NCBI GenBank assembly: GCA_947493005.1
Contig: CANLOY010000004.1
Span: 62,001 to 126,000 of the forward strand
Direction of reading: 5' to 3'
Length of the DNA: 64,000 nucleotides
Source: an uncultured Roseivirga sp.
GTDB taxonomy: Bacteria > Bacteroidota > Bacteroidia > Cytophagales > Cyclobacteriaceae
Positions 16,934 to 32,384 of this stretch are shown in pieces. Within the stretch, counting starts at the first letter, position 1. Each line of letters begins with the position of its first letter. The translations under genes and the position numbers were made by a program. A model generated the notes under the pieces. That model had not been told where the DNA came from and did not search any database. It worked only from the letters and a program-made list of their open reading frames with translations.

Positions 16934-17341
16934 ATGAGAAAGAGAAAGCAAGTTTCGGAGATACAGAATTCAACATTCCTTGCTAAAGGAGTATCAATTG
17001 AAGGTGAATTGAAGGCTTCTGGAGTAATAATATTGGAAGGAGAATTAAAAGGAGATGTACTCTATGCGAGCAAGCTGGAAATACGCGATTTTGGAAGACT
17101 GATTGGGAATATTAATGTTGAAGTTGCCGAGATAAATGGTTTTGTTGAAGGAGATGTTATCGCTGGGGGTATGATTCTTTTGAAGGCAGGAGCAGAGGTA
17201 AAGGGTGACCTTTATACGAATAAGCTGATAATTGAACAAGGTGCTTTTTTTAGTGGCATCAGCAAAATGAGTGGGTCTCAATTGAGCTTGAAAGAAATTC
17301 CAATCCTTGACGAAACACAATCTATTGCTGCAAATGCATAG
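16934..17341 (+). CDS. Bactofilin family protein
   Basis: A polymer-forming cytoskeletal protein. The centre (about residues 15-110) is a right-handed beta-helix of short hydrophobic/glycine turns: G-V-S-I-E-G-E-L, I-L-E-G-E-L-K-G-D-V, I-N-G-F-V-E-G-D-V, V-K-G-D-L-Y. Flanking tails are short and polar, as usual. Bactofilins scaffold cell-wall enzymes. The ATG at 16934 is preferred over a TTG 15 bases upstream because it starts at the basic R-K-R-K tail. The gene stands alone, 177 bases from the divergent DUF1080 gene. Confidence 0.88.
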   Translation: MRKRKQVSEIQNSTFLAKGVSIEGELKASGVIILEGELKGDVLYASKLEIRDFGRLIGNINVEVAEINGFVEGDVIAGGMILLKAGAEVKGDLYTNKLIIEQGAFFSGISKMSGSQLSLKEIPILDETQSIAANA

Positions 17342-17436
17342 AGTTTAGATTGCTTCACTACACAATGAGGAGGTGCAGGTGTTTATATCCAGATTGTTGG
17401 GTGAGTAGGTCCTTTATCTCTTCAGCTTAATTAGTA

Positions 17437-17927
17437 CGTCTTTGCGAGGAAGTATGACGAAGCAACCTCCTCTCTTTTCGGAGCACAAGTGTTTAAGCAA
17501 ACCATTTTAAAGAAAAATCACCAATGTTGTATATCAAAATAGAGGTCTCTCCATTCGGGATTAACCGACTCCATAAGTAGAATCTTCTTTTTCCTGGATC
17601 CACCTTTGATTCTTTTTTTCCTCTTCAATGGCAGATTCTATATGGTCGAATACCCTGAAATAGACCAGCTTATTTGCATTGTATTTTGCAGTAAATGACT
17701 TCAAGAAGTGTTTTTCTCTATGTTGGATTATTCTAGGTACTAAATCAGACGTTACTCCCGTATATAATGTGGAATGGTACTTATTGGTCAGTATATATAC
17801 GAAACCTCCCTTTGTCATTACGGTGCATATTTTATGAAAGTATCAAATCAAGGTTAGTTTATACACATTTATCATTCAATTACCTTATACAAACTATGAA
17901 AGGAGATTGCTTCACTCTGTTCGCAAT
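17437..17927. mobile_element. Inverted-repeat element enclosing a GIY-YIG nuclease gene
   Basis: Two complementary arms flank the GIY-YIG gene. The left arm (17437-17470) begins CGTCTTTGCGAGGAAG and ends GAAGCAACCTCC; the right arm (17902-17927) begins GGAGATTGCTTCACT and ends TTCGCAAT. The same left and right arms, 77-93 bases end to end, occur three times at 31721-32277 with no gene inside. Reading this as one element family, with a gene-carrying copy here and gene-less copies there, is inference; the matching arms are seen directly. The right arm's outer end is less well kept (AATAGG instead of AATGACG). Confidence 0.55.
17518..17818 (-). pseudogene. GIY-YIG nuclease, frameshifted
   Basis: A single-domain GIY-YIG endonuclease of the short type. 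Seen are F-V-Y-I-L-T-N-K-Y, T-L-Y-T-G-V-T-S-D-L and the following Arg (V-P-R-I-I-Q-H-R). As written the frame stops at 17561 after 85 codons with an odd tail. Dropping one A from the run of seven A in the coding strand (a T run near 17613) restores the family consensus: E-E-K-R-I-K-G-G-S-R-K-K-K, then S-V-N-P-E-W-R-D-L-Y, ending at 17518. So it is a one-base frameshift, a sequencing error, or a slippage-expressed gene. It lies between inverted arms (see the enclosing element). Confidence 0.75.
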
Positions 17928-17934
17928 AGGAATA

Positions 17935-18198
17935 CTATTTATTAGGAATTTTGTTGATAATATGTGCTCCAAACCTTATAAAAAGGGATAAAATAAAAAT
18001 CATTGGAATTCCGAAGACACCAAAGATCAAAATGATGTTCAGCACATTGTCAGAAAACTCGGTGCCGGTTTGAGTACCAGTATTGGTCATCATTGCTTTG
18101 GCTATTACATAGACAGAAGTGAGTAAGAACCAAAGAAACGTTCCCCTCAGGTAGAATTTTTTAAACTTAATTTGCTCTGCACTCTTATCGATATTCAA
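17935..18198 (-). CDS. Small two-helix membrane protein, unknown
   Basis: An 87-residue protein with two hydrophobic segments (about residues 18-36 and 52-74), a basic region between residues 8 and 16, and a short polar Thr/Gly-rich loop (T-N-T-G-T-Q-T-G-T-E) between the helices. The only sensible start is a TTG, which lowers confidence. No family recognised. It begins right beside the right arm of the GIY-YIG element, in whose orientation it is also read. Confidence 0.5.
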   Translation of the reverse strand: MNIDKSAEQIKFKKFYLRGTFLWFLLTSVYVIAKAMMTNTGTQTGTEFSDNVLNIILIFGVFGIPMIFILSLFIRFGAHIINKIPNK

Positions 18199-18344
18199 AT
18201 TTAACCTTTACATATATTACTTGATTAGAATACAGAGTTATTTATGTATTAAGATGTATGAAAAAGAGAATTGGCTAAATAAACTCTTAGGGTTTTCATG
18301 AAGAACGAAAATACCGAACTTAAGAGTTAATTGTTTTTAAGCTT

Positions 18345-18716
18345 ATGAACATTAACCCATCACCAAAGCAGCAACAAGACTTTATGTCTATGCCTGATGT
18401 TAAACCTGTTTTTATGGTTAACCTGCTAAAGTTCAGGCCTAAAGGAGTTGAGATTTATCAAGAGTATATAAAGAAAGTAGCCCCACTGTTAAAAGAGGTT
18501 GGAGGTGAGTTAATATGGTCGGGTAAGCCATTAGGTATTTTAATTGGCCCGGAAAATGAGAGTCTATGGGATGCCATGTTGATTGTTCGATATCCTGATA
18601 AAATGGCTTTAGCACAATTGGGAGGGAATCCAGAATACCCTGGACACCTGAGAACAGAAGCCCTGGAAGATTCTCGTTTAATTGCCTGTGCCCAACTAGA
18701 CTTTAGTCAAAGCTAA
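18345..18716 (+). CDS. DUF1330 domain protein
   Basis: A 123-residue dimeric alpha-beta-barrel-type protein. The V-F-M-V-N-L-L-K-F strand, Y-Q-E-Y-I-K-K-V-A-P and the later L-I-V-R-Y-P-D-K-M-A strand with a following R-T-E-A-L-E-D-S-R-L match DUF1330/EthD-like folds. Function is unknown in most members. The last 14 bases overlap the convergent membrane-protein gene. Confidence 0.75.
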   Translation: MNINPSPKQQQDFMSMPDVKPVFMVNLLKFRPKGVEIYQEYIKKVAPLLKEVGGELIWSGKPLGILIGPENESLWDAMLIVRYPDKMALAQLGGNPEYPGHLRTEALEDSRLIACAQLDFSQS

Positions 18717-19773
18717 CCTGTTCCAGATTAACCTTAAAATGATTTAATAGCCAGACTGATTTATCACTTTTAATATTCTTATAATTGATTTCAAGGGTTA
18801 GCTCCTCAATTCCGGTGAGTCCAGATATCTGCTGAATCCGTTGTTCATTTTCTTCAATAGCATCCAGAAAATCCAAAGCGGAACGTATACCTATTCTTTG
18901 AAGTTTCATAATATCATAATGGAATTCAATAAGTAGTTTGGCTTGTGAAACCCAATCCAATAAAACCCTGACTGGGAATGGCGTTTTCACTATGAGTAAT
19001 AGAAAGTTGAATTGAGCAAGGTTCTGAACATTATCAATACCAACTTCATTGAGCCTGAGTTTGTGGAAATAGCTGATGCCTTCAATGGCTTCTAATGGCA
19101 GGTTTTCCACTTCCTCTTTTCTTCTACCGGGAAAAATGTCAGAAGTCTTATCCATTAATAATTTAAAACCCTTGTCTGGGAATATTCCAGTAAGGAAGGC
19201 AATTACTAAAATCACGCTTGATTCGGATTCTGGGTCATCATAACCGAGTACATAGGCCAGCATCAATGAAACTACAGGAGCCAATAACATTCTAATGCCT
19301 ATGGAGAAAAAGTTTCCAGGAGTTAAGTCGATAGTAGAAAACCTTCTGTAGATATACTGTCCGCCACTAAGGAATCCTCCCATTAACGCCCAGCCAACAA
19401 TAGCCAGACTCTTCTTTTCTTTTCCATAAACAGGATCGGCCCAGAAGTCACTTCCAGACCATAACATACTTTTTGCGAGGCCTTGATCCGTCAGGTCATA
19501 AAGTGACCAGCCCATGAGCATTAAAAACAAGCCGATCATGCTTAGTACCGTAACAAAAATAACTGGTAGGATATAGTCTTGTCTGGCAAATTCCTTATCC
19601 ATACTGTTTTTTAAACTAAAAGATTTCTCTTTGAGGTTAAGGCTGCTAATCAAAGAATCCAGCTCTTCTTGTTTGCGTACCAGTCTGAACTTAAAAAATG
19701 AGAAAGTGATAATTATGAAGTATGAGCTTAACAGTACTAAAGCTATAGCTTCAATCCATTGGGCAAGAGACAT
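18703..19773 (-). CDS. Multi-pass membrane protein with helical cytoplasmic tail, unknown
   Basis: About 356 residues. Five hydrophobic segments occur in the first 210 residues (starting near residues 5, 55, 115, 145 and 175), after which comes a soluble, helical C-terminal half with repeated short L-x-x-I/V-G-I turns (L-N-E-V-G-I-D-N-V, L-Q-R-I-G-I-R-S-A, I-S-G-L-T-G-I-E-E). These turns recall helix-hairpin-helix units, but that is only a resemblance. The internal ATG is chosen because it begins directly at the first membrane helix; a longer start 23 codons upstream is possible. No known family recognised. Confidence 0.6.
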   Translation of the reverse strand: MSLAQWIEAIALVLLSSYFIIITFSFFKFRLVRKQEELDSLISSLNLKEKSFSLKNSMDKEFARQDYILPVIFVTVLSMIGLFLMLMGWSLYDLTDQGLAKSMLWSGSDFWADPVYGKEKKSLAIVGWALMGGFLSGGQYIYRRFSTIDLTPGNFFSIGIRMLLAPVVSLMLAYVLGYDDPESESSVILVIAFLTGIFPDKGFKLLMDKTSDIFPGRRKEEVENLPLEAIEGISYFHKLRLNEVGIDNVQNLAQFNFLLLIVKTPFPVRVLLDWVSQAKLLIEFHYDIMKLQRIGIRSALDFLDAIEENEQRIQQISGLTGIEELTLEINYKNIKSDKSVWLLNHFKVNLEQVSFD

Positions 19774-19933
19774 TTTTTGTTGTGTTTGGAGGAATATACA
19801 AACATTTTGAAAAGCATGAGCATACAAATTATAAGATGGCATGACTTAGCTAGTTTTTGCTCTGGTGGAATTCAGCTATATAATTGTTGAATTGAAATTG
19901 ATAAATTCATTGTCGAATTAAACACACATACAC

Positions 19934-21034
19934 ATGTCGAGATATCAAAGTAAGGAGTACAAAAAGCGCTCCTATTTGCCTGAATTGCCAGTTGTAGACT
20001 GGAGTGCAATCGGTAAAAAGGCACCGAAAATCATCCCTTTCGATTACAAAGGTGCAGATGCACCATTACCAGATGCAGATATGGTTGTTATCACCTGGAC
20101 AAGTGCAGAATGGTCGGCTTTTGATCATGTATTTGTTAACAGCCAAACACCCAGAGGGCCATACGCTTCAACTGACTGGAGAGATGCCTGGAAAGCCTAT
20201 AGCCGTGGAACATCGAGTGCTGAAGGAACCACTCCCTGGGGCTATTACCTTTTGGTTGGGATAGAAGACAACTCAGGAAGTGAGAAAAAGGTAATTCTAT
20301 TTAAGTCTGAAACGCATTTGGCACATGCGCCATACATTGCCGGTTTAACAGAAATGACCAAGTGCATTTTAGAAGATGCCAAACCAGATCAGATTTATTC
20401 CATAGGAACGGCAGGAGGAGCTTCTTTAAAGTCTGTACTTGGAGATGTAGCACTTACTAACTCAGGACATATCAAGCTGAAACTACCTGAAAACAAAGGG
20501 GTAGATTTTAATAATAAAACGTTTACTTCTTCCTTTTATCCATATCTGGATATGATACCCTCTGTTGAAAAACAGTTTATTCCATTAAGCACGGTAATGA
20601 CAAAAAGTGAGCTGGAATATTTAATCGAAAAACTTCACGAAGAAAAGAAAGTAGCAGCACCTTTCGGTTACGAGGATCTGGTCAACTTTCCATTGAGTCC
20701 TTCCAATACCGATAAGCCCAAGGTGATGGAAGCCAAGGGCATTCCATTGCTTACTACGGATTACTACTTTATTGCCAATGGAGATGACACTGCACAATAT
20801 TCAGCTTTGGAAATGGACGATACGGTAATAGGACATCAAGCTGGTTTGATGGGGGTAGACTATTGCTACGTTCGGAACATCTCAGACCCGGTGATTGCCA
20901 GCAAAGCTCAGGATGGAACGGAAATTCCTGCTGAAGTAAGGGAAGAATGGTCAAGCCTTATTTATGAGACGGCTGGGTTCTATACCAGCTTCAATGGCGC
21001 TTTAACCGCCTGGGCAGCTTTGGTTGGTCAATAG
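19934..21034 (+). CDS. Nucleoside-phosphorylase-fold protein
   Basis: A 366-residue cytoplasmic protein that follows the purine nucleoside phosphorylase/MTA-SAH nucleosidase plan: an opening strand M-V-V-I-T-W-T-S-A-E, the phosphate/ribose-binding type I-Y-S-I-G-T-A-G-G followed by G-D-V-A-L-T-N-S-G, the A-L-E-M-D-D strand in place of V-E-M-E-A, and R-N-I-S-D-P-V in place of R-x-I-S-D. The family cleaves N-glycosidic bonds of nucleosides. It is larger than ordinary nucleosidases (about 230-290). Its neighbour downstream is a UDG-like protein on the same strand, 180 bases away across an inverted repeat. Substrate unknown. Confidence 0.7.
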   Translation: MSRYQSKEYKKRSYLPELPVVDWSAIGKKAPKIIPFDYKGADAPLPDADMVVITWTSAEWSAFDHVFVNSQTPRGPYASTDWRDAWKAYSRGTSSAEGTTPWGYYLLVGIEDNSGSEKKVILFKSETHLAHAPYIAGLTEMTKCILEDAKPDQIYSIGTAGGASLKSVLGDVALTNSGHIKLKLPENKGVDFNNKTFTSSFYPYLDMIPSVEKQFIPLSTVMTKSELEYLIEKLHEEKKVAAPFGYEDLVNFPLSPSNTDKPKVMEAKGIPLLTTDYYFIANGDDTAQYSALEMDDTVIGHQAGLMGVDYCYVRNISDPVIASKAQDGTEIPAEVREEWSSLIYETAGFYTSFNGALTAWAALVGQ

Positions 21035-21062
21035 CAATTCAATTGAGTTGTCTCAATTATAT

Positions 21063-21155
21063 CGTCATTCCCAACTTGATCCGATATTTCGGATGGGAAT
21101 CTCACTAAAAGAAACAGGTGACCTTAATGAGATTCCCGATTCCTCGGGAATGACG
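21063..21155. repeat. 93-bp inverted repeat (CGTCATTCCC...GGGAATGACG)
   Basis: The outer 10-base arms CGTCATTCCC and GGGAATGACG are perfect complements. Inside, GGGAATCTCA and TGAGATTCCC form a second nested pair, so the unit can fold as one long stem or two hairpins. It fills the gap between the phosphorylase-fold and UDG-like genes. A partial relative is at 15434-15460. It is REP- or MITE-like; no coding content. Confidence 0.7.
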
Positions 21156-21213
21156 TTGCTTCTTCGATTTTTGTTAAAGCCTCTTTTTAGAACATTAAAT
21201 AGTAAACACAATC

Positions 21214-22917
21214 ATGTCAAATTCAACCTATAACCCACCACGTGCCAAGGAAGTAGATACAAAAGATCCTTTAGAAATAGATTTAGTATTCAACATCCGT
21301 TCGTGCGGGACCTGTGACTTTTTCTGGCCTAAGGATAAAAGAAAGCAACCCTATGGACCTTATACCGCTTTTGATTTTCAAAAGAGCATTCCTGATGAGA
21401 ATGATCCAAAAGATAACCCAGAGGATTACTTATGGTTGAAAGGAGTAACGAGAGAGGACGCTTTCCCTAATGGAGAAGTAATGGACGGTTGTCGGAAAGC
21501 ACCCATAATGACCATTGGTATTAACCCCAATATGACTGCTTTTGCTCCAGGGCAACAAGGAGCGAGCTGGGCTTATCCCAATTTTACCAGCGATGAGGAT
21601 ACAGATGCATGGACCAAGTATGCGTATTATTATAGATACAGGTCAGTATATCAGGAGCACTTGAATCTGGATTTTGTGAAGGAAAACCTATCATCTGAAG
21701 GGCAGATTATTGCAGAAAGGGATGGTAAGCTGGTCAGTGCCGAAAGAACTAGTTCTTCTCCTTCTTATGATATAGAAGTCCTTTATGATGGAGATGCTAA
21801 AGCGACTAAAATCCATTTGTCTGGAGAATTAGGCTCTCCTCAGTATGTGCTGTTATATGATCACTTTGAACCGAATAATGTGTTTAAAAAAGGAGATGTC
21901 ATTGCTGCTAAACCGAATATTCCTGCAGGTGTAGAGACAGACGTCTATCAAGAACAAATAGGCTACTATGAGCAGTTAGTGCCCACGTTGAATATGTTTT
22001 CAGATTTCCTGAAAGAAAAGGGAATGACAGGTGCCGATATTCAAATTGGGGAAGATGTCGGACAGTTGGATATGGTGGCTTGCGCATCTCCGCATTGGAA
22101 TAAGGCTTTCCTGAGCGATGAGAAGGGAGATAGGGAACCAGACATTATCAATAACTGTGTTTCAAAAAATGCCTGGGCCATAAAGCAGTTGGTGCAGACG
22201 AAACCAGCCGTACTTTATCTGGTTGGAGAATCTTCCTGGAATATGTTCAGAGATGCTTTTGGTGGTTTAATTCACCAAAAAGAACCCATGCCGGAGTATC
22301 CTGAAGATGGTGCTTTTACACTCTTTAAAAGTACCATAGATGATAATAATCCTTGCTACTTTAAGTTTTCGACAGAGATTGATGGAAGATCATATGAATT
22401 GACAACGCGCTTAATCGCTACGCCTCACTTTTCTTACAATACTAATTTCCTGCCTCAGTTTAGAATGAGTCCTGATGACCTGAAGGCTTTCAAAGCGAAT
22501 TATGCTGCATGTTATGCCTATTTCGAAAAAAGTGAAGATGTTGACATAGTGCCAGCAAAAGATTATGGTTTTTCAGCAATTCAGATTGTAAAGAATACGG
22601 ATGAGGTTTTTCAAGCACTTGAGAAAAACTATTCTGAAGCATTGAAAGCATTAACGCCTGGATATTATAATCCACATCGTCAAATGGCCGAGGTGTTAGA
22701 AGGGCTTTATAATGCGGGTAAATTAAGTTATGTGAAGGGCTCGGGAGAAGAAAAAGGTTACTTGACACGCTCTGAAGGTTCATGCAGTTTCTGTGTAAAC
22801 GATCACTGGGAATTTCCTTTAGGTTGTCCTTATAAGAAAACGGAAGAGCCAGCACCCCCTGTAGGCTTTCTGAAAAAAGTGGCAGCCCAAATAGTCAAAG
22901 CTGGCAAAAAGGAGTAA
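21214..22917 (+). CDS. Large Cys-rich protein with uracil-DNA-glycosylase-like motif order
   Basis: A 567-residue protein with no assigned family. Four stretches match the UDG superfamily in order: I-M-T-I-G-I-N-P-N (residues 98-106, like the G-E-x-P-G loop), L-D-M-V-A-C-A-S-P-H-W-N (like the N-V-x-K-C-R-P-P strand), V-L-Y-L-V-G-E-S-S-W (like V-x-L-G-x-x-A), and I-A-T-P-H-F-S-Y-N-T (like T-x-H-P-S-Y). Cysteines cluster at both ends: Cys31/Cys34 (C-G-T-C), Cys93, and Cys524/527/538 (C-S-F-C ... G-C-P-Y-K-K), a possible iron-sulfur or zinc site as in family 4/5 UDGs. It is far larger than normal UDGs (about 200), with a long insertion. Activity is inference. Confidence 0.55.
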   Translation: MSNSTYNPPRAKEVDTKDPLEIDLVFNIRSCGTCDFFWPKDKRKQPYGPYTAFDFQKSIPDENDPKDNPEDYLWLKGVTREDAFPNGEVMDGCRKAPIMTIGINPNMTAFAPGQQGASWAYPNFTSDEDTDAWTKYAYYYRYRSVYQEHLNLDFVKENLSSEGQIIAERDGKLVSAERTSSSPSYDIEVLYDGDAKATKIHLSGELGSPQYVLLYDHFEPNNVFKKGDVIAAKPNIPAGVETDVYQEQIGYYEQLVPTLNMFSDFLKEKGMTGADIQIGEDVGQLDMVACASPHWNKAFLSDEKGDREPDIINNCVSKNAWAIKQLVQTKPAVLYLVGESSWNMFRDAFGGLIHQKEPMPEYPEDGAFTLFKSTIDDNNPCYFKFSTEIDGRSYELTTRLIATPHFSYNTNFLPQFRMSPDDLKAFKANYAACYAYFEKSEDVDIVPAKDYGFSAIQIVKNTDEVFQALEKNYSEALKALTPGYYNPHRQMAEVLEGLYNAGKLSYVKGSGEEKGYLTRSEGSCSFCVNDHWEFPLGCPYKKTEEPAPPVGFLKKVAAQIVKAGKKE

Positions 22918-22994
22918 ACTCAGCACGATTATTCTTAGAGGAATAAGTTTTCTCAGATCAGCTGCAAGGTTAAATCAATCTGTTAAAAGAAAGC

Positions 22995-23366
22995 TTATTC
23001 CCTTAACTCTTTAAACACAATTGAATTATTGTCAGGGTCGTAGACTCCGACACTTAGGGCTTGATCGTTTTCTGTAATTTCTCCCATTAGTGTTCCCCCA
23101 TGAGCTTTAACTGTGCCAATAAGAGCTTTCAGGTCAGAAACTATAACATCGAATTGATGTCGATTTTGATCAGCGGTATTTCTAGCTATTTCAGCTGGGC
23201 AGAAAAGGAGTTTCATGTCCCCCCAGTTTCCGGAATATAGCTTGGTTCCATACATTTCATTTTCTTCAAAATCAATATTGAAAACACTGGAATAGAAATC
23301 TAACATTTCATCCATTTTAGTAACGGCTAATGTCATGCCTTCAATTTGGTAATCCACTTTTTCCAT
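22995..23366 (-). CDS. VOC family protein
   Basis: About 123 residues of vicinal-oxygen-chelate fold: M-T-L-A-V-T-K-M-D-E-M-L-D-F-Y near the start and D-P-D-N-N-S-I-V-F-K-E-L at the end. The ATG at 23366 is chosen because a longer frame to 23423 would run into the end of the neighbouring S9 peptidase gene and adds residues unlike the family. It lies 10 bases downstream of that peptidase gene on the same strand, so it may be the tail gene of that unit. Substrate unknown. Confidence 0.78.
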   Translation of the reverse strand: MEKVDYQIEGMTLAVTKMDEMLDFYSSVFNIDFEENEMYGTKLYSGNWGDMKLLFCPAEIARNTADQNRHQFDVIVSDLKALIGTVKAHGGTLMGEITENDQALSVGVYDPDNNSIVFKELRE

Positions 23367-23376
23367 ACTATGCTTT

Positions 23377-25434
23377 TTAACGTCTGATATCCATAGAAAT
23401 TGACTCGGTTCTATACTTATCAAACCAAGTTAGTATTGCTGAAACCTTACCAATTAAATTGCTGGGTCTGGCGGCAATGCCATGATAAGCACCCGGAATA
23501 CGCACCATGGCAGTTTCAACCCCTTTGAGTTTTAATGCGGTATAATACTGTTCTGACTCATGAATAGGTGTTCTTAAATCCGCTTCACCTGTTAAGAGCA
23601 TAGTAGGTGTGGTGACATTTCCAATCAGAGAAATAGGAGAGTGCTTCATATATTTTTCAGGATCTTCCCAAGGCTTTTTCTCAAACCAGTATCGTGTGGC
23701 AAAAGCAGACATATCAGCATACAATGCCCAGCTATACCAGTTGATTACCGGCTTGGCGACCACCGCAGCTTTGAATCGATCGGTTTTGCCTACAATCCAT
23801 GAAGTGAGTACACCACCACCAGAACCACCGGTAACAAAGAGCTGACTTTCATCGATATACCCTCTTCCGATTACTTCGTCTACACCAGACATCAGGTCAT
23901 CATAATCTTTGCTTGGGTAGTTCTTATCGATTTCGTTACCGAAATCATAACCATAGCTAGTACTGCCTCTAGGATTGGTATACAGTACAACATAACCCGC
24001 AGCGGCCATCAGTTGTATCTCTCCGGAAAATACCGGGCCATAACTAGAGAATGGGCCACCATGAATTTCGAGAATCAGTGGGTACTTTTTGTTCGGGTCA
24101 AAGTCAGCAGGTTTTACAATCCAGCCATTGATATCCAATCCATCGGCTGACGACTTATACCAGATTTCTTCAACCTGCCCCAGCTTTTTATAATCCAGCA
24201 GGTCTTCGTTGACCTTGGTAATTCTTCTGTTGTTTCCGTTGTTTCCAACCCCTAAATCCGCTGGTTCATGTGTTTCTGCCCAGGTATAGGCATAGTTACC
24301 ATTATCAGCAATAGAGTAGCCCCCAGAGGTATAAGGCCTGCCTAAAGACATACCACCCAGACCTTCGGTAATATCCGTCACCTTTCCCTTCAGTGTGATG
24401 TGAGCGATTTTGGTGTGCGCCTTGTCTACATACTGAAAGTAAAGCCCTTTGCCATCGGCTGCCCATTTGATATTGCCAACATCTCTGTCCAGTTTTCCAG
24501 ATACCAACCGACTATTGGAACCATCAACATTGGACACATAAAGTTTGCTGATCTGGTAGCCCTTGTACTTATCATCATATCCAAGGTAGGCCATTAGCTT
24601 TCCGTCAGGTGAAATGTTTGGACTGCCATCAGGGCCATAGCGATTGGTCAGTTTCTTTAATACTCCTGTAGTCAGCGACACAGAATAGATATCTGAGTCA
24701 GAGCCTTCAAACTCCCTGTCTTCTCTCATGTTGGCACTGAAGTACAGATGCTTCCCATCCTTTCCCCAGGTAGCATTTCCATGATTAAACGGACCTTCAG
24801 TAACTTGCCTTGGCGTACCGCCAGAAACATGCACGGTAAAAAGTTGCTGGTTACCTTGAGGCAATTCACCAACCCCATCTCTTCGCCAGGAGAGATCATC
24901 TACATATTTAGGAGGAGCATTCCATGTAGCACCTTTTGGTTTGGCGGGCATTTTAATAGGTGATGGTTTAGCCTTTGGAACAAACATGTTGAAAGCCAGA
25001 TGTTTATCGTCAGGAGACCAGGTGATGCTTGAAGGTGATTTTTCTGAGTTCACCAGCACCATTTCATCCCCAGAATCCATCCATCGCAGATAGATTTCTG
25101 ACTTCCCATCTTTATTGGAGGTATAGACTATTCTAGTACCATCATGAGACCACCTTGGAGAGCGGTCGTTTTGCTCGCCCGTGGTTAGGGGTCTGTTCTG
25201 AGTGCCATCGAAATTGGCAATCCAAAGATTCGATAGACTCCTGTCCGTCATAATGTCTTTGAAGTTCCTGACATAAATTACCTTCTGTCCGTCAGGGGAA
25301 ATTTGCGGGTCAGAGACAAATTCAAGATTGAAAATGTCCAGCATTTCCAATCGGTTGGAAACCTGTGCACTGAGGCTTGAAATAAGGAATACGGAAAGCA
25401 GAATAGAATACGAGAGTCTTTTTAGCAGTTTCAT
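23377..25434 (-). CDS. S9 family serine peptidase (prolyl oligopeptidase type)
   Basis: An exported 685-residue peptidase. A signal peptide (residues 1-23, ending S-L-S-A-Q) is followed by a beta-propeller with repeated P-x-x-S-P-D-G-K and W-S-x-D-G-T turns (about 35-400), then the alpha/beta-hydrolase domain. The catalytic triad is Ser538 (G-G-S-G-G-G), Asp619 (T-G-E-A-D-L-R-T-P) and His651 (G-A-Y-H-G-I). The size suits acylaminoacyl-peptidase or DPP-type members that take short peptides in the periplasm. A VOC gene follows 10 bases on. The upstream region (25435-25790) is filled with tandem repeats. Confidence 0.9.
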   Translation of the reverse strand: MKLLKRLSYSILLSVFLISSLSAQVSNRLEMLDIFNLEFVSDPQISPDGQKVIYVRNFKDIMTDRSLSNLWIANFDGTQNRPLTTGEQNDRSPRWSHDGTRIVYTSNKDGKSEIYLRWMDSGDEMVLVNSEKSPSSITWSPDDKHLAFNMFVPKAKPSPIKMPAKPKGATWNAPPKYVDDLSWRRDGVGELPQGNQQLFTVHVSGGTPRQVTEGPFNHGNATWGKDGKHLYFSANMREDREFEGSDSDIYSVSLTTGVLKKLTNRYGPDGSPNISPDGKLMAYLGYDDKYKGYQISKLYVSNVDGSNSRLVSGKLDRDVGNIKWAADGKGLYFQYVDKAHTKIAHITLKGKVTDITEGLGGMSLGRPYTSGGYSIADNGNYAYTWAETHEPADLGVGNNGNNRRITKVNEDLLDYKKLGQVEEIWYKSSADGLDINGWIVKPADFDPNKKYPLILEIHGGPFSSYGPVFSGEIQLMAAAGYVVLYTNPRGSTSYGYDFGNEIDKNYPSKDYDDLMSGVDEVIGRGYIDESQLFVTGGSGGGVLTSWIVGKTDRFKAAVVAKPVINWYSWALYADMSAFATRYWFEKKPWEDPEKYMKHSPISLIGNVTTPTMLLTGEADLRTPIHESEQYYTALKLKGVETAMVRIPGAYHGIAARPSNLIGKVSAILTWFDKYRTESISMDIRR

Positions 25435-25576
25435 AAGGCTGAGGTTGATATGAAAAGGAAGATAGTAAAAGACTACAAGAGGAGAAAGTGTACTTGTTAT
25501 GAATGGAAACCCTTAAGTCATTCAGAATTATAAAGTTATAGACTAGCTACCCTTTGATTCTCTAAAGGGGCTTATT

Positions 25577-25722
25577 TCTCCCTTTAAGGCAGGGGTAATC
25601 GATACTACTTCGTCACCCTTTAGGGTTGGGGTAACTGACACAACTTCGCTCACCCTTTAGGGCTGGGTTAATAGATACCATTTAGTTCTCCCTTTAGGGT
25701 TGGGGTTATTATCATAGTCCTA
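25577..25722. repeat. Four ~37-bp tandem degenerate repeats
   Basis: Units start near 25577, 25613, 25650 and 25687, each opening with TC(A/T)CCCTTTAGGGTTGGGG or a close variant and then about 18 variable bases (often ACTTCG). A mirror half-unit, TCTAAAGGGG, sits just before the first (25561). The array fills the gap between the divergent S9 peptidase and phosphodiesterase genes (25435-25790); nothing else is visible there. Confidence 0.7.
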
Positions 25723-25790
25723 AGTGCTTAGCTTAATAACCCTTTTTTAATATGGAGTTGCCCCCCTTGTCCGGGAATCATGCTATTTTC

Positions 25791-26786
25791 ATGACCATGA
25801 AACAAATGATTTTGCTCGCCATTGCTTTCTTCTTTTGTCTGGGATGCAAAGAAGAGCAGAAAGACCGAAAAGTGGTTTTTATATTACTCGATGGCATACC
25901 TGCCGATGTATTGGAAAGTGTTGAAACGCCATTTCTTGATGAGATTTCGGAAACTGGAGGCTACACTCGTGCTTATGTAGGTGGAGAAAAAGGAGGGGAG
26001 TCTGAATCACCAACCATTTCTGCGGTGGGCTATAACAGTCTACTTACTGGTACCTGGGCTAATAAACATAATGTATGGGGAAATGACATTAAGGACCCCA
26101 ATTATAAGTATTGGAGCATTTTCAGGCTGGCAAGACACGCTAAGCCTGAAACAAAGATGGCAATCTTCTCTACCTGGCAAGACAACAGAACCAAATTGAT
26201 AGGAGAAGGCCTAGCCGAAACAGATTACCTGAAAATGGATTATGCCTTTGATGGTTTTGAGTTAGATACGCTTCGCTTTCCACATGATGAAGATCGAAAG
26301 TACATCTCCGATATTGACGAATTAGTCTCCGAAGAAGCGGCCAGATATATCAAGTCTGAAGCCCCTGATTTGTCTTGGGTATATCTAGAATACACTGATG
26401 ATATGGGGCATGAATATGGAGACAGCCCACAAATGACGGAGGCAGTGAAGCTTGCTGATAAACAAGTGGGAAGAATCTGGGAATCTGTAAAAACAAGGCA
26501 AGAGCAACACAACGAAGAATGGCTGATAGTCATCACCACAGACCATGGTAGAACCTCCTCAGACGGTAAAGGACATGGTGGACAATCAGACCGAGAACGT
26601 ACTACATGGATTGTAACCAATTACCCGAAGCCATTACCGGCATTTTATCAAAATCCGGGCATTGTAGATATTATGCCCTCTATGGCCAGTTTTATGGATT
26701 TAACAATGCCAAAGAGGAGTGAGGAAAGAATTGATGGGGAGAGTTTTGTTGAGAGGTGGCAGAGTGCTGCTGATTTAGTTTTTTAA
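25791..26786 (+). CDS. Alkaline-phosphatase-superfamily phosphodiesterase lipoprotein
   Basis: A 331-residue lipoprotein related to nucleotide pyrophosphatases/phosphodiesterases. The ATG at 25791 gives a clean lipoprotein signal (A-F-F-F-C-L-G-C). Metal and nucleophile motifs are F-I-L-L-D-G-I-P (metal Asp), S-P-T-I-S-A-V-G-Y-N-S-L-L-T-G (Ser or Thr nucleophile), D-D-M-G-H-E-Y-G and T-T-D-H-G-R. The pattern fits enzymes that hydrolyse phosphodiesters or sulfate/phosphonate esters in the periplasm; the substrate is not told by sequence. It is divergent from the S9 gene and ends 58 bases before the convergent hamB. Confidence 0.8.
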   Translation: MTMKQMILLAIAFFFCLGCKEEQKDRKVVFILLDGIPADVLESVETPFLDEISETGGYTRAYVGGEKGGESESPTISAVGYNSLLTGTWANKHNVWGNDIKDPNYKYWSIFRLARHAKPETKMAIFSTWQDNRTKLIGEGLAETDYLKMDYAFDGFELDTLRFPHDEDRKYISDIDELVSEEAARYIKSEAPDLSWVYLEYTDDMGHEYGDSPQMTEAVKLADKQVGRIWESVKTRQEQHNEEWLIVITTDHGRTSSDGKGHGGQSDRERTTWIVTNYPKPLPAFYQNPGIVDIMPSMASFMDLTMPKRSEERIDGESFVERWQSAADLVF

Positions 26787-26844
26787 ATTTCCAACTTTTC
26801 GGATAAGTTAAAATCTATTTTGTTTTACTAAACAGCTATCATCT

Positions 26845-29154
26845 TCAAACGTTGTTATCACCAGTACTTTCTTCATTTATTATTTTTTCAACTTTATTAA
26901 ATATGATGAATTCATATTTGTCAAATGATTTTTTGATTTCGTTTGCTTTATCCTCATTCTCGTAATAGTCAATAATTGAATTAGGAACGCCAAAATCACT
27001 TGCTATTCTTCCTTTTTCTGTAAACGCATTGTACTCTAGTTTGGTCAATAATCTATCAAGACCACTTACTTCATCAATAGGTTGGTCAGTTTGTTTCGAA
27101 ATGTGAAATTTATACATAACATTAAATACTCCTAGGTATTTGACAACTTGATATTTTAAAGTGTTATATACAAATTCCGAGGTTTCAGAAATAGCTTTGT
27201 CAACAGTTAGTCCTTTGCTTAATTTAAAATTAACCGAACCTCTAAAACCACTTGTTAAGTAGAAATGAACTAAATGTGTTAAAGTCGAGTAATTGCCATT
27301 TTCACCTTTGTATTCAATTAAGAACTTTAGTTTTTGATTTTTAACTACAGACTCTAAAATGTTTAGAATGATTTGAAAGCCATCATACTCGATGTCCATT
27401 TTATAATTGATATACCGGATTAATTTTTTGATGTCTTCTAGTTGAGCTTGGTTTAACGAAACGATTTTATCGTAAATCTTTATTTTGTCTTTTCTACTTA
27501 CTACTTTATATAAATGGAATATTTCATCAGGAATGCCTCTTTCTTGTTGAAGTTGATTAATATCGATTATTTTAGTTTTGTCCTCCTCACTTAAATACTC
27601 TTCTTCAGTATAAAATAAATCAACTTCTTCTTTTGGTGAGTTTATGTCGTAGTTTTTATGTTTTATTCCTTCAGGTTCAGAGTTAATTGCTTCCATAAAG
27701 CTGTTTTTAAGAACAATAACTCTACCATTATAGTGGTATAAAAATCTGCCCGCCCTACCCGCAATGTTTTTCGCATCGAACTTCTTTAGAGGTTTATTGC
27801 CTTTTTTATCATGAAGAACGATTAAATTTTTAGCGGAAGTATTTACTCCTTCTGTGATTGTAGTTGTTGAGAGTAGAACCTTTAGCAAGCCTTTGTTAAA
27901 TAGTGAAACTGTCTCTTTTTGAATGTATTTAGGTACAAGTCCGTGATGTATTCCAATTCCTTTTTTTAATGCACTTATCAAAGTCCATTCATTGTTGAAA
28001 TTATCCGATATATGGCTTACAAATTCATCATATTCCTTAAAGCTGTGATTAATAAGTAATCCTGAATTTATGATTGTTTTTGCATAGGATTCAACCGAAC
28101 TTCTAGAGTAACAATAGACAATTGTATTTTCATTAAGGTTAAAAATTTGATCTAGAATTTCAATAAGCCTATCATTCTTTGAACTCGTTTTAAAATTCAA
28201 ATCAAAATTGTGGTCAACCGAATAGCTCTTTTTACCCTTTATATCGCTGAAGCTCTTATTTACTATTTCAAGATTATTATAGTCAATTAATTTGATTTTA
28301 TTTTTCTCTAAAAACCTATCAAAAGAACGGTTGTAATTTACGTCTTTAGGCCTTGAGAAATCTATATATGGTCCAGCTAAAAGTGTGTCAACATCCTTTT
28401 TAAGTGAATAAAACACAGCTAACCTATATGCGACATCTCTTTCATTTTCTCTGACTTCTTCGTCAATAATATAATCGTTATCTATTTTATAGACCTCATC
28501 AATAAATGCAAAATTGAAATCTATTTCTTTTTCTCTTTTTTCTATAAATGATAAGTAGCGTTCGGGTGTGTAAATGAATAGATTTTTGTTATCAAAATTT
28601 TCAACCTCGCTTAAAGTATGTATAGAATATTTTTCGACAAAAAAACTGTAACTCTCATCGGAAGTTAACCTTTCAAGATTCTCTGAAAGCAAAGCAATTG
28701 TTGGAAAAATCAGGACTACATTATCATAGTCCATTTGTTTGATTATTTCGAATACTATGTGAGTCTTTCCAAAAGAAGTACTGGCCGAAAGAAAGTATCT
28801 ATTTAATTGGTTAGGTTCAAAAAGTTCTAGAATCTGCTTTTGATACTTATGTACTTTATTGCTCTTACTTATATTTAACGTGCTTTCATAAATCACTGCA
28901 GATAGCGTGTTTAAGTCGAAAGAATTTAGAGTGATATCCTGTCCAAACTTTTCTAACAAGTCATAGAAGTGGGGAATTCCAATAACACCAGAAATGTATT
29001 TCAAGAAATTTAAGTCAGCTTCAAATAAATCTTCTTGTTTGATTTTATCAAAATAGTCACAAACTACTTTGATAAGTTCATGGCTCTGAAGCTTATCATT
29101 TCGATAAGCATTAAGAGCTTTAATTAGATTAGTGGCTTCTTCAATTCTATCCAT
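26845..29154 (-). CDS. hamB: Hachiman system helicase HamB
   Basis: A 769-residue superfamily 2 helicase of the Ski2-like kind. Motifs in order: Walker A A-S-T-S-F-G-K-T (124-131), P-T-I-A (151-154), T-P-E-R-Y-L (196-201), D-E-V-Y box (219-222), G-I-H-H-G (401-405), T-T-T-I-T-E-G-V-N (430-438), A-G-R-A-G-R (465-470). The C-terminal 250 residues are helical with no known name. It is the second gene after hamA, overlapping it by 31 bases, the layout of two-gene Hachiman antiphage systems, in which HamB surveys and unwinds DNA and controls the HamA nuclease. Visibly AT-rich compared with neighbours, as expected of a transferred defence gene. Confidence 0.88.
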   Translation of the reverse strand: MDRIEEATNLIKALNAYRNDKLQSHELIKVVCDYFDKIKQEDLFEADLNFLKYISGVIGIPHFYDLLEKFGQDITLNSFDLNTLSAVIYESTLNISKSNKVHKYQKQILELFEPNQLNRYFLSASTSFGKTHIVFEIIKQMDYDNVVLIFPTIALLSENLERLTSDESYSFFVEKYSIHTLSEVENFDNKNLFIYTPERYLSFIEKREKEIDFNFAFIDEVYKIDNDYIIDEEVRENERDVAYRLAVFYSLKKDVDTLLAGPYIDFSRPKDVNYNRSFDRFLEKNKIKLIDYNNLEIVNKSFSDIKGKKSYSVDHNFDLNFKTSSKNDRLIEILDQIFNLNENTIVYCYSRSSVESYAKTIINSGLLINHSFKEYDEFVSHISDNFNNEWTLISALKKGIGIHHGLVPKYIQKETVSLFNKGLLKVLLSTTTITEGVNTSAKNLIVLHDKKGNKPLKKFDAKNIAGRAGRFLYHYNGRVIVLKNSFMEAINSEPEGIKHKNYDINSPKEEVDLFYTEEEYLSEEDKTKIIDINQLQQERGIPDEIFHLYKVVSRKDKIKIYDKIVSLNQAQLEDIKKLIRYINYKMDIEYDGFQIILNILESVVKNQKLKFLIEYKGENGNYSTLTHLVHFYLTSGFRGSVNFKLSKGLTVDKAISETSEFVYNTLKYQVVKYLGVFNVMYKFHISKQTDQPIDEVSGLDRLLTKLEYNAFTEKGRIASDFGVPNSIIDYYENEDKANEIKKSFDKYEFIIFNKVEKIINEESTGDNNV

Positions 29155-30020
29155 TCTAATACGCTCTTTTTAACTTTTTTCACATCTTCTACGGGTATAA
29201 ATATGAAGAAAACACTGTATGGTATTGATAAATCATAATCTTCTAGTTTATAATTTTTTTCTATATACTCTGGTATTTTCTTAATACTCTCATCATAACC
29301 TAATTTGCTTTGCTCAAAAAGAATGATAACTGGATATATAAGATTTATTGAATGTTCTTTTAATTTTTCTATGATTTTTATACTTGGATTTTTATCCCAG
29401 TCATCAAGTATGATTTTGATTTTTGAATCTTCTACATTTAAATTTTCTCTATTCTTTCTTATTGCCAAAAGGTTTGTATTTAAATAACCATCAGAAAGAG
29501 AAGATTTGATTTTCTTTAAAACATCATTTACGGCACTTGTATAACTTATATGAAACTTGGTTTCCCCAAACCAAAGTCCAACAGTATCATTTTCCTCAAT
29601 TAAATGATAAGCATCATATCCACGAGCTTCACCTTTAGTTAGTGGATCATAGAAATAACCTTTTGAAATTAATGTGTCAGTTTTAAAAAAAAGCTTCAGA
29701 ATACAATGCAATAGAACTTCTCCAAAGAAACCATATCTCAATTTAGATGCTTCATTATCAGCTTCATTATATCTTACTCTTTCCTGAAAGGCGATTGTGT
29801 GTAAATCTTCTAATTCTCTTTTCGTAAAATCAAATTCGTTAAAAGAGTAATCAATTATCGAATTATAAATGACTTCTACCAAAGCTTGTTCATTTGAAAT
29901 TGAATAACACTTATCGTTTTCGGTTGAAAATATAGTTTTTGGAATAGATTGAGGAGTATTCGGTAAATCATATTTATATATGATAGTGCTCTTAATTAAG
30001 TTATATAATGGTTCTCTCAT
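29124..30020 (-). CDS. hamA: Hachiman system nuclease HamA (DUF1837)
   Basis: A 298-residue DUF1837 protein. The nuclease core of the PD-(D/E)XK type is visible: Glu101 (F-F-G-E-V-L-L-H), Asp136 (A-R-G-Y-D-A-Y-H) and Glu153-x-Lys155 (W-F-G-E-T-K-F). All presumed catalytic residues are present, so it should be active. In studied systems HamA degrades DNA once HamB senses phage activity. It is the first gene of the pair; its 3' end overlaps hamB by 31 bases. Low GC like hamB. The region just upstream carries a 150-base repeat also found upstream of the lipoprotein gene at 30786-31412. Confidence 0.9.
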   Translation of the reverse strand: MREPLYNLIKSTIIYKYDLPNTPQSIPKTIFSTENDKCYSISNEQALVEVIYNSIIDYSFNEFDFTKRELEDLHTIAFQERVRYNEADNEASKLRYGFFGEVLLHCILKLFFKTDTLISKGYFYDPLTKGEARGYDAYHLIEENDTVGLWFGETKFHISYTSAVNDVLKKIKSSLSDGYLNTNLLAIRKNRENLNVEDSKIKIILDDWDKNPSIKIIEKLKEHSINLIYPVIILFEQSKLGYDESIKKIPEYIEKNYKLEDYDLSIPYSVFFIFIPVEDVKKVKKSVLEWIELKKPLI

Positions 30021-30082
30021 TCAGTTTTTGCGGTCTTTTACTTCGGTGGTAACTTTACCCATATACCTATTTCATAGCATTT

Positions 30083-30232
30083 ATATTTTCAATAATTCAC
30101 CAATAATCCGTGCCACCGGCCAATAGGGAAGACTATACTTAGTCTTTTGGTTTTCAGAAAAGCATGTGGAGTATCGAGGGCATTGCGTGTTGTTCTTTTA
30201 TGAAGTAAAGAAGATAATATTATAATCACAAG
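30083..30232. repeat. Duplicated upstream region, copy 1
   Basis: An imperfect direct repeat with 31463-31607. The ends are best kept: TATTTTCAATAATTCAC at the left and the 21-base exact match at 30200-30220 (ATGAAGTAAAGAAGATAATA plus T) at the right. The copy begins 63 bases upstream of hamA. Confidence 0.65.
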
Positions 30233-30287
30233 TGGAAAATATCAAATGGATATTTAGTGTTAGGAGCAGGTGGCGTTGTCAACTTTC

Positions 30288-30713
30288 TTATTCCTCTGAT
30301 CTTGAAGTAACCTTCCAGGTAATGCCAAATTGGTCGGTACAAATACCAAAGTATGCTCCCCAGAATGTCATATTCAATGCCACTTTTATTTCCCCATCTT
30401 CAGCGAGTTCATTAAACAGTCTGTCAGTTTCTTCTTTACTGTCTGCATTAATGATTAGGGAAAAGTTGCTATATTCAATGGACTGATTATATGCTGCTGA
30501 GTTGTCAGCACCCATTAAACAGGTTTCCGTACTAATGGGCAAGGTGGCGTGCATAATTTTTTCATCCGCTTCCTTGAAAAGATGCCTGTGTGCATTGGGC
30601 GCATTTTTATAACGCTCCATATATGTAATCTCTGTACGAAAAACAGCACTATAAAAATTGAAGGCAGCTTCACAATTACCATTAAAATAGATGTATGGAT
30701 TTACTGTGGTCAT
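30288..30713 (-). CDS. PhnB-like VOC protein
   Basis: A 141-residue protein of the PhnB/3-demethylubiquinone-methyltransferase-like VOC type: N-P-Y-I-Y-F-N-G-N-C-E-A-A-F-N-F-Y at the start, M-H-A-T-L-P in the middle, and F-W-G-A-Y-F-G-I-C-T-D-Q-F-G-I-T-W at the end, all characteristic of this subgroup. Such proteins are abundant in Bacteroidota and usually lack an assigned function. Lies upstream of hamA in the same direction but separated by 267 bases containing a repeat, so it is probably not part of the defence operon. Confidence 0.85.
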   Translation of the reverse strand: MTTVNPYIYFNGNCEAAFNFYSAVFRTEITYMERYKNAPNAHRHLFKEADEKIMHATLPISTETCLMGADNSAAYNQSIEYSNFSLIINADSKEETDRLFNELAEDGEIKVALNMTFWGAYFGICTDQFGITWKVTSRSEE

Positions 30714-30785
30714 AAGGAGAGTTTGTAGTGTGACTTTAGTTTTCTGTCGCCATAAGAGTAAGTGTAAAACATATTTTACACAGCG

Positions 30786-31412
30786 TTATAAAGTGTTTTG
30801 TTTTAATTTTTCGATATCTTTTTTTAGTCTTTTAATGTTCTCTTGAATATGCTTTTCGATTTCCGAATAGTGATTAAGTCCATGAGCACTAATTGTATTT
30901 ACTTGCTCTAATGTCTCAGTATCTACTATTCTCAATTCATAACCCCATTTCACTTGATTTCTATTAAACCCTCCATACGGTTTGTCAAATCGAGTCAGGA
31001 TTAGAAAATCAACATCAACTTTTTCAATAATTGGAGGACAGTATTTTTTATCAAACACACCTTGATAGGTAACTCCCATGAGTGTTTTCAGTGGGAAGGG
31101 GGTAACTTTAATATTTTCAAACTTATTCAACTCGTTCTCAACAACAGGATTAAAATTGTAATTATGCATTGCATATTCATATCCATTTGCACACTGAACA
31201 ACAATGATTTCAAGAGTGTCGATACTTTGTGTGCCTTCAGATAAATTTACCTCATTCATAATTTTTGAAGTATCAATCGAGTTAGCCTCAATTTTTTCTT
31301 CTTTTGATTCGATTGAATCCTTTGCCTTCTCTTTTGTTGAATTACAGCTGGTAAAGGCTAAAAGAGAAAGGAACATTAAAGTTTGAAGGCCTTTATGTCT
31401 ATGAATTGTCAT
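30786..31412 (-). CDS. Putative lipoprotein, unknown function
   Basis: About 208 residues. The ATG at 31412 precedes a signal segment with lipobox F-T-S-C; a charged Lys/Glu/Ser-rich linker follows (about residues 25-60), then a compact domain of alternating strands and helices (I-I-V-V-Q-C-A-N-G-Y-E-Y, F-L-I-L-T-R-F, W-G-Y-E-L-R-I-V-D). The tail is a Lys-rich helix. No family recognised. Same strand as the PhnB-like gene, 72 bases upstream of it. Its own upstream region carries copy 2 of the duplicated region. Confidence 0.6.
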   Translation of the reverse strand: MTIHRHKGLQTLMFLSLLAFTSCNSTKEKAKDSIESKEEKIEANSIDTSKIMNEVNLSEGTQSIDTLEIIVVQCANGYEYAMHNYNFNPVVENELNKFENIKVTPFPLKTLMGVTYQGVFDKKYCPPIIEKVDVDFLILTRFDKPYGGFNRNQVKWGYELRIVDTETLEQVNTISAHGLNHYSEIEKHIQENIKRLKKDIEKLKQNTL

Positions 31413-31462
31413 TTTGTTCAAATGGTGTGCAAAGATGTATAACGCTTTCTTTTACAAGTATT

Positions 31463-31607
31463 TTATTTTCAATAATTCACTAATCATTCCTTGTAGCTAA
31501 TTAATAGGTGTGCTATAAGCACCTTTTGTTTATAGGAAAGCTCAGAAATTAAAAGGTATTGCCTGTTGTTCCTTATGAAGTAAAGAAGATAATATAATAA
31601 TGACAAG
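31463..31607. repeat. Duplicated upstream region, copy 2
   Basis: Matches 30083-30232 in the same orientation, with the exact 21-base stretch at 31575-31595. It begins 51 bases upstream of the lipoprotein gene, much as copy 1 lies 63 bases upstream of hamA. Confidence 0.65.
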
Positions 31608-31638
31608 GCCGAAAACCGGAGATTGACTTGTTATAGTA

Positions 31639-31668
31639 GGAGTTTGCTTCACTGTGTTCGCAAAGACG
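31639..31668. repeat. Solo right arm of the inverted-repeat element family
   Basis: GGAGTTTGCTTCACTGTGTT followed by CGCAAAGACG matches the right arm of the elements at 31721-32277 and 17437-17927. No left arm is seen to its left, so it may be a half copy, or pair with a more distant arm. Confidence 0.6.
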
Positions 31669-31720
31669 TGATGAAGATATTTACATAGAGAGGCCTTTAT
31701 GCCCTTCAGCTTAATTAGAA

Positions 31721-31800
31721 CGTCTTTACGAGGAAGAATGACGAAGTAATCTCCAGAAAGACATTGGGCAAGAGATTGCTTCACTGCGTTCGCAATGACG
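31721..31800. repeat. Inverted-repeat element copy A (80 bp)
   Basis: Left arm 31721-31754 (CGTCTTTACGAGGAAG ... GAAGTAATCTCC), short spacer, right arm 31772-31800 (GAGATTGCTTCACTGCGTTC then GCAATGACG). The outer CGTC/GACG and inner TCTCC/GGAGA portions pair. It is followed by a 33-base tail, 31801-31834 (GGACTGGGGAAGGGTGGTTG...), that recurs after copy B. Confidence 0.7.
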
Positions 31801-31953
31801 GGACTGGGGAAGGGTGGTTGTACCGAGACTTAGTGTTAGGTCGTTGGAAGTTAATAACAGGGTTGTTTCATTCCATTTGCAATGACGGGGTGAACGCATT
31901 TGGGTTAGAATTATGGGGTGGATTTGCCTTGTTTCACCTCAAAATAATTAGTA

Positions 31954-32030
31954 CGTCACTGCGAGGAAATATGACGAAGCAGTCTCCAAAGGTCTTGTTA
32001 GGAGATCGCTTCACTGCATTCGCAATGACG
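31954..32030. repeat. Inverted-repeat element copy B (77 bp)
   Basis: Left arm 31954-31987 (CGTCACTGCGAGGAAA ... AGTCTCC), right arm 32001-32030 (GGAGATCGCTTCACTGCATT then CGCAATGACG), and the same tail at 32031-32063 as copy A. Confidence 0.7.
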
Positions 32031-32277: not shown

Positions 32278-32384
32278 TACTAATCTGGTTTAGTCTAAGG
32301 GGGAGATTAAGACTAGCTGTAATACCATAACTAAATCACTTCCTTTTTTCCATAAAAAACGATTAATCCGTACTTTACCTATTC

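Follow-up and report, generated by a model that had tools for sequence, protein, structure and literature searches.

Small GIY-YIG nuclease genes between CGTC-type palindromes: a candidate REP-nuclease pairing across bacteria

A small GIY-YIG nuclease gene of an uncultured Roseivirga sp. belongs to a clade whose members are associated with flanking palindromes of the CGTC REP type, and this gene-repeat association is general and firm. Moreover, gene and arms co-vary, and REP-type genes have switched neighbourhood more frequently than GIY-YIG genes of a control subfamily. From these sequence comparisons we lean, with somewhat more confidence than doubt, toward a REP-nuclease system formed by the gene and its flanking palindromes, in which the nuclease would mobilise its own repeats.

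RESULTS

Element in the window

The window, i.e., the whole stretch of DNA analysed (64,000 nucleotides, C4:62001-126000, from a genome of 4.88 Mb), holds the following features.

17437-17470, + strand: left arm, a REP-like palindrome with an outward CGTC tag; 1 mismatch to the arm consensus
17901-17930, + strand: right arm, a REP-like palindrome oriented oppositely to the left arm, with a decayed outer end
17561-17818, - strand: GIY-YIG nuclease gene, a reading frame of 85 aa, C-terminally truncated by a frameshift
17521-17628 (C4:79521-79628), - strand: C-terminal nuclease remnant, out of frame with the gene; matches profile positions 64-99 as a second piece
17346-17376, + strand: perhaps a third arm, degenerate, of right type and lying upstream of the left one (array context), read by eye against 32094-32127; low confidence
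31639-31668, + strand: solo right-type arm
31721-31800, + strand: gene-less repeat pair, REPIN-like unit 1
31954-32030, + strand: gene-less repeat pair, unit 2
32185-32277, + strand: gene-less repeat pair, unit 3
31848-31894 and 32079-32125, + strand: degenerate right-type arms inside the 231-base array (direct repeat D7); arm reading by eye

The original prediction had placed arms around a single GIY-YIG gene, and gene-less units with a solo arm at 31.6-32.3 kb, and all of these are present. The spacer between the arms is 430 bases long and contains one recognisable gene. The two gene-flanking arms are not identical: they have the outer and inner stem halves in common and differ in their loops. 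The three gene-less units form one array with a period of about 231 bases, which the gene-bearing copy resembles also upstream of its left arm (repeat family D2). A fuzzy arm scan of the window returned 5 sites, vs none in any of 10 first-order Markov shuffles; two known sites that it missed, the right arm (17901) and unit 2 (31954), are visible in other comparisons. Close to the gene-less array, repeats of 27 and 35 bases (D9, D13; 30081-30232 and 31461-31607, about 1375-1380 bases apart) surround two small genes.

The left arm and all three gene-less units start with CGTC, the outer end of the right arm being decayed. Many arms of relatives have the stem of 8-9 bp beginning with AT and the loop of 4-5 bases of CGTC REPs; the window arms have longer loops and weak hairpins. 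As for the CCA tail, the window left arms and most of the Bacteroidota arms listed end in CT, and CCA-ending arms are present in S. meliloti, Rhizobium, and Azospirillum. A general CGTC-hairpin detector, strict or relaxed, did not find the window's own arms; the window copy is thus an eroded member of the REP-nuclease pairing, and its arms, which also deviate in stem and loop, are called only CGTC-REP-like. In single-strand folding, neither arm outperformed shuffles (z 0.61 and -0.71), and the three gene-less units folded at best moderately (z -0.33, -2.55, and -1.74), whereas an intact repeat pair from a relative reached z -11.3. An Rfam search of window positions 17200-32500 gave no match.

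Nuclease

The window gene matches Pfam GIY-YIG (PF01541) with an E value of 1.1e-11 and 45.2 bits (cut-off, 22.6), its only Pfam match, with no Y1 domain. Its clade consists of stand-alone GIY-YIG nucleases of about 95 residues, in which Y20, G22, R30, H34, E67, and N86 are invariant across 61 aligned relatives, R30 being only nearly invariant once four plasmid sequences are added (65 rows). The conserved Tyr, Arg, Glu, and Asn presumably have catalytic-type roles, and in the window copy the Asn-bearing C-terminal part is out of frame. An AlphaFold model of the nuclease has a mean pLDDT of 93, and its nearest structures, all weak matches (none at an E value of ≤0.001), are UPF0213 BH0048 (1zg2), Slx1, and the UvrC N-domain. 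The best of them is the UPF0213-type small GIY-YIG protein (E 4e-3), which shares fold and size. SLX1-SLX4 is described as a structure-specific endonuclease in the accessible text of PMC8287910, and the Slx1 likeness of the model would fit a hairpin or cruciform substrate for the nuclease. A PADLOC search gave no match for the nuclease.

Other GIY-YIG and Y1 genes of the genome

A PF01541 search of the genome found nine places. Two are long proteins, by their size presumably UvrC and the polymerase-associated exonuclease; one (L007) is a short protein of another subfamily with no visible arms; and six (L001-L005 and L008, the window copy) are small genes of one type. Each of these six has, by eye, a separate family of palindromes on its two sides, mostly of the shape GTC-AT-stem-loop-stem-AT-CT. 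The detector found arms on both sides of 2/6 (strict) or 5/6 (relaxed), missing the window copy in either setting; a scan of the nine loci with the window's own arm matched L008 alone, with 4 mismatches in its right arm.

There are also five Y1_Tnp matches in this genome. The RAYT-like genes L034-L037 adjoin palindromes of their own that are different and, by eye, not of the CGTC kind, making up a second REP system in one genome. One arm-like CGTC stretch lies some hundred bases downstream of L034 (at 2290).

Arms around relatives

Relatives were collected by scanning one genome per species with an alignment of the six proteins, and the best 80 of 579 confirmed relatives were kept, a similarity-ranked and not a random sample. 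Among these best 80 of 579, CGTC-type palindromes occur on both flanks (400 bases) of 63/80 genes with the relaxed detector and of 44/80 with the strict one, compared to 8/259 and 4/259, respectively, of the control ORFs in the same loci. The strict count shifts with gene boundaries and flank width (44/78, 43/80, and 44/80), the first value leaving out the 2/80 loci with a flank of <100 bases. Detector arms are absent from both sides at 2/80 loci, both with flank repeats of other shapes by eye. The original prediction had drawn the link between gene and repeat from position alone, wondering whether the family might usually lack arms or the arms might enclose unrelated genes. The link is upheld by these counts and by the co-variation described below: genes without any arm and control ORFs with two arms are both rare, though two repeat pairs of the genus with a spacing of about 460 and 630 bases (L235 and L236) enclose no GIY-YIG gene by eye.

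REP density in the best 80 of 579 relatives, minus the 2 with a flank of <100 bases, is 2.58/kb at ≤400 bases from the gene and 0.15/kb at >1 kb, with 0.04/kb in shuffles. In the repeats nearest to the gene, the CGTC tags face outward at 29/44 loci and inward at 5/44 with the strict detector (36/63 and 8/63 with the relaxed one), and these outward tags, like the repeat pairs of the genus, correspond to the head-to-head pairing of CGTC REPs. Upstream and downstream flanks are also more alike within than between loci (inverted, 27.3 vs 13.8): over 73 loci, 7/80 being dropped as short of flank, the own partner was the best in 30/73 rows and 27/73 columns, where one is expected.

Outside Bacteroidota (by record title), relaxed-detector arms lie on both sides at 15/22 loci, these 15 including Balneola, Ignavibacteriae, Peregrinibacteria, Gottesmanbacteria, Roizmanbacteria, Armatimonadetes, Anaerolineaceae, and Alpha- and Gammaproteobacteria. 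Matches were present in 43 plasmid or phage records, and of the 12 analysed (11 plasmid, 1 phage), 7/12 have relaxed-detector arms on both flanks, while at L135, L139, L140, and L141 arms are absent or detector matches are isolated and chance-like. L135, without clear arms, is from Novosphingobium aromaticivorans, for which CGTC repeats are recorded in the accessible text of the 2013 survey (PMC3733652). In S. meliloti Ak57 (L130), the detector found arms upstream only, and a slightly altered downstream copy is visible in the alignment. The Neisseria locus (L133) lies inside an array of CGTC repeats, and the same survey text equates the Neisseria CGTC repeats with dRS3 (PMC3733652).

Three loci showed further particulars. 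A 406-residue GIY-YIG frame (L114, 4001-5221) has a long repetitive C-terminal part resembling translated palindromic repeats; in Ak57 a partial nuclease 3' end with arms lies beside the full gene (L130, 2080-3010); and on Planktothrix plasmid p1 (L134, 2181-3097) the unit has an MmeI-type restriction gene on one side and the DISARM gene drmA on the other.

Co-variation and copy number

Profile scores have a bimodal distribution across 19 genus genomes, 18 of which contain the REP-type gene, at 1-8 copies per genome; the 19th does not. Arms on both flanks (500 bases) were found for 35/58 REP-type genes (relaxed; strict, 16/58) vs 1/27 (strict, 0/27) of the other small GIY-YIG subfamily of the genus, which we take to be UPF0213 (Fisher 2e-7 for the relaxed counts); L007, without a profile match, is outside these 27 controls. 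GIY-YIG genes of this type do have arms.

In 209/275 trials, the copy closest in protein was also the copy closest in its arms (83.4 expected; maximum of 122/275 in 1000 shuffles of arms within genomes). The trials are not independent: each pair enters from both sides and relatives have ancestry in common, and the shuffles preserve genome composition but not all ancestry. A trial compared each gene with each other genome holding two or more non-syntenic copies, 20 pairs flagged as syntenic being dropped.

For two arm families, genomes with the cognate gene have more copies than genomes lacking it (5 vs 14 genomes each, p 0.009 and 0.004; the groups were set post hoc, after seeing the counts). 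The window arm family (threshold 0.6) shows a weak trend, with at least one copy in 7/7 genomes having a related gene and in 5/12 without. At the level of the order, the REP-type gene is present in 29/98 genomes (E 1e-15). Arm-model matches occur in five of the 98, and the four that hold the gene account for 48/50 matches, the covariance model (R1) having low sensitivity over these genomes; since its rows were picked by the hairpin detector, its pair counts are not taken as evidence. Exceptions exist on both sides: G113 has arm-model matches without the gene, G016 has 8 copies of arm family C and G015 has 14 of arm family B without a close cognate gene, and G002 has a cognate gene and no arm copy matching the pattern.

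Neighbourhoods, sites without the gene, and gene-less pairs

Outer-flank homology between similar protein pairs was found in 7/78 REP-type pairs vs 9/16 pairs of the control subfamily (p 7e-5). Sites without the gene, which the original prediction had suggested looking for, exist in three genera. In Azospirillum lipoferum, the unit lies between sufB and sufC, which are adjacent in three aligned relatives. Sphingobium TomMM15 and TomMM7A carry a unit that TYG72 and TYG65 lack, and TYG74 and TYG64 have in its place one fused double-tagged palindrome. Where S. meliloti Ak57 carries its unit, a fused palindrome of similar kind is present in Sinorhizobium K101, together with a further, degenerate repeat. 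These fused palindromes consist of the outer halves of both arms, and the form is not common, since double-tagged repeats are 2/246 of the strict REPs in the 80 loci. A fused palindrome may be either an insertion target or the product of a deletion between repeated stems, and deletion between repeat copies could account just as well for the sites that lack the gene. Short target duplications had also been suggested as something to look for: when gene-bearing sites of Sphingobium, Sinorhizobium, and Azospirillum were aligned with their counterparts lacking the gene, the flanks being diverged, none was seen and no exact insertion junction, nor did the gene-less units of four collinear 50-kb Sphingobium stretches, some with diverged flanks, reveal a target duplication.

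Gene-less pairs of the genus are near-constant in length (73-80 bases in 7/8 examined), and those of Sphingobium have the same inner ends as the gene-bearing unit. Between two close members of the genus we found no newly inserted pair: the three pairs examined are common to both, one of them decayed in one species. One gene-less pair (L242, L244) is kept at the same place in two genus members. In a search of relatives for the window's own site without the gene, none of the six neighbouring proteins was found beside a GIY-YIG homologue in eight locus records (six distinct places; flanks of 0.7-1.5 kb, 4 kb in one), and two DUF1330 homologues (about 68% identity) had no GIY-YIG match beside them.

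DISCUSSION

Association, co-variation, gene-less copies, neighbourhood change, and sites without the gene can be read directly from the sequences, and from them we infer recognition, cutting, and copying driven by cutting. In the mechanism that we propose, each nuclease would recognise the CGTC-tagged palindrome belonging to it, probably in hairpin or cruciform form, and cut within or next to this palindrome; the break would then be repaired, or replication restarted there, so that REP-gene-REP or REP-short spacer-REP is copied to new places, and gene-less pairs would accumulate as non-autonomous copies. Such recognition and cutting of its own palindrome by each nuclease could explain why gene and repeat evolve as a pair. 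GIY-YIG enzymes are hydrolytic, and hence we know of no integration chemistry for a lone enzyme of this family. The original prediction of a nuclease-carrying element with non-autonomous derivatives, in which a nuclease is the likely mover, is in line with the arms around relatives and the gene-less pairs, though the window gene itself is frameshifted. In place of its description as MITE-like, we would call the repeats palindromes of the REP/REPIN type rather than classical MITEs: inverted repeats are present, and no target duplication was recognised in the alignments with their diverged flanks.

RAYT-REP systems are built on the same plan, with one small DNA-cutting enzyme gene between inverted palindromes, REPINs, and co-evolution of enzyme and repeat. 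The chemistry of GIY-YIG enzymes is presumably hydrolytic and without a covalent intermediate, unlike that of RAYTs. The enzyme of our system is a GIY-YIG nuclease (PF01541) where RAYTs are Y1 HUH enzymes of the IS200/IS605 type (PF01797), and its tag is CGTC instead of GTAG. The gene between the window arms matches GIY-YIG and no Y1 HUH transposase, the Y1 genes of the genome adjoining other repeats, and the co-evolution of RAYT and REP has its counterpart, by analogy, in the 209/275 trials for the GIY-YIG clade. On RAYT-REP/REPIN systems, see also PMC3116915 and PMC2817692. The REP-nuclease system would thus work like RAYT-REP with an unrelated enzyme, its clade being the obvious candidate partner of the repeats.

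CGTC REPs were defined in 2013 by Di Nocera, De Gregorio, and Rocco as repeats apparently without a dedicated transposase, widespread in five phyla, the dRS3 repeats of Neisseria and the RPE-4 and RPE-6 repeats of Rickettsia being among them (accessible text of PMC3733652). The likeness to the arms described here is close: an outward CGTC or TGTC tag, a short stem usually beginning with AT, and mostly head-to-head pairs, often heterodimers (accessible text of PMC3733652); moreover, S. meliloti, A. lipoferum, and Neisseriae, which have CGTC REPs according to that text, are among those in which we found the gene. The differences are that Bacteroidota arms end in CT and not CCA, many with longer, bulged loops, and that a nuclease clade lies between the repeats, GIY being nowhere mentioned in the accessible text of PMC3733652. 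The intragenic set of that survey omitted REPs inside hypothetical proteins of <120 residues (PMC3733652, accessible text), and this omission may have helped a gene of 95 residues to go unnoticed. The pairing of GIY-YIG genes with REPs was not found in the open-access literature, a search with preprints and most subscription papers outside its scope: in the accessible texts, a Moraxella study tabulates a GIY-YIG gene together with a RAYT gene, unlinked (PMC9465073), an isopod-symbiont study does not link GIY-YIG and REP (PMC10928387), and RepRanger (PMC12306157) and PMC6006769 merely cite the 2013 paper. Thus, we did not find the widespread REP-nuclease pairing described in the open-access literature, and earlier publication elsewhere is possible.

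Free-standing GIY-YIG homing endonucleases, e.g., the phage Seg proteins, are also encoded by lone and apparently mobile genes, with sites that do and do not hold the gene. A homing parasite, whose gene enters palindromes by cutting and repair, in the manner of such homing genes, while something else moves the repeats, is the strongest rival, yet an unlikely one. The fused double-tagged palindrome at two gene-less sites, in Sphingobium and Sinorhizobium, is what would be expected of an uncut target, but simple deletion between repeated stems produces it too. Unlike homing endonuclease genes, the element has dedicated palindromic ends and gene-less derivatives and is not restricted to a single homing site, and the gene-less pairs, of near-constant length and in Sphingobium with the inner ends of the gene-bearing unit, speak against homing, as do the rarity of two arm families where the cognate gene is absent and, exceptions apart, the concentration of arm-model matches in genomes with the gene. 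Less probable still is a host-domesticated nuclease that trims or resolves cruciforms at REPs for maintenance or regulation, the repeats marking sites without moving. It would agree with a fold resembling the structure-specific nuclease Slx1 and with the three gene-less pairs kept in place in two species, one decayed; on the other hand, patchy presence (29/98 genomes of the order), a copy number varying from none to 8 in the genus, broken copies, and frequent neighbourhood change give the gene the look of a mobile one. The control subfamily differs in the latter respect as well as in its arms (both flanks in 1/27, relaxed), having more stable surroundings.

A Y1 (RAYT/IS200) transposase moving the CGTC repeats in trans, with the GIY-YIG gene as cargo, is highly improbable in our opinion. 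The genome does have Y1_Tnp matches and an arm-like stretch downstream of L034, but its RAYT-like genes adjoin, by eye, different palindromes of their own, cargo is not expected to co-vary with arm sequence, and, as the accessible text of PMC3733652 has it, none of the tyrosine transposase genes of CGTC-positive species is flanked by CGTC repeats. That REPs simply gather near small intergenic genes is what their mostly intergenic location (accessible text of PMC3733652) could suggest; such chance or passive linkage seems to us scarcely credible, given control ORFs and a control GIY-YIG subfamily mostly without arms, and co-variation of gene and arms.

Beyond the REP-nuclease system itself lies a broader proposal, which to us is evenly balanced: these nucleases may be the dedicated mobility enzymes of CGTC REPs, and the unit of one GIY-YIG gene between two palindromes, with the gene-less pairs, a distinct, phylum-spanning class of minimal mobile elements that would spread by hairpin cutting and host repair, without transposase, recombinase, or reverse transcriptase. 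If the clade is the partner of CGTC REPs, REP mobility would have evolved twice from unrelated nucleases, and such enzymes may be the missing partner spreading widespread and so far ownerless bacterial repeats. In that case, a single small protein and two short DNA substrates would suffice for a direct test.

Other features of the window

On the - strand at 26845-30020, PADLOC identified a Hachiman defence pair, the HamB helicase (1118 bits) and HamA DUF1837 (413 bits). Four tandem units of about 37 bases (D4) lie at 25577-25723, before an ORF at 25752.
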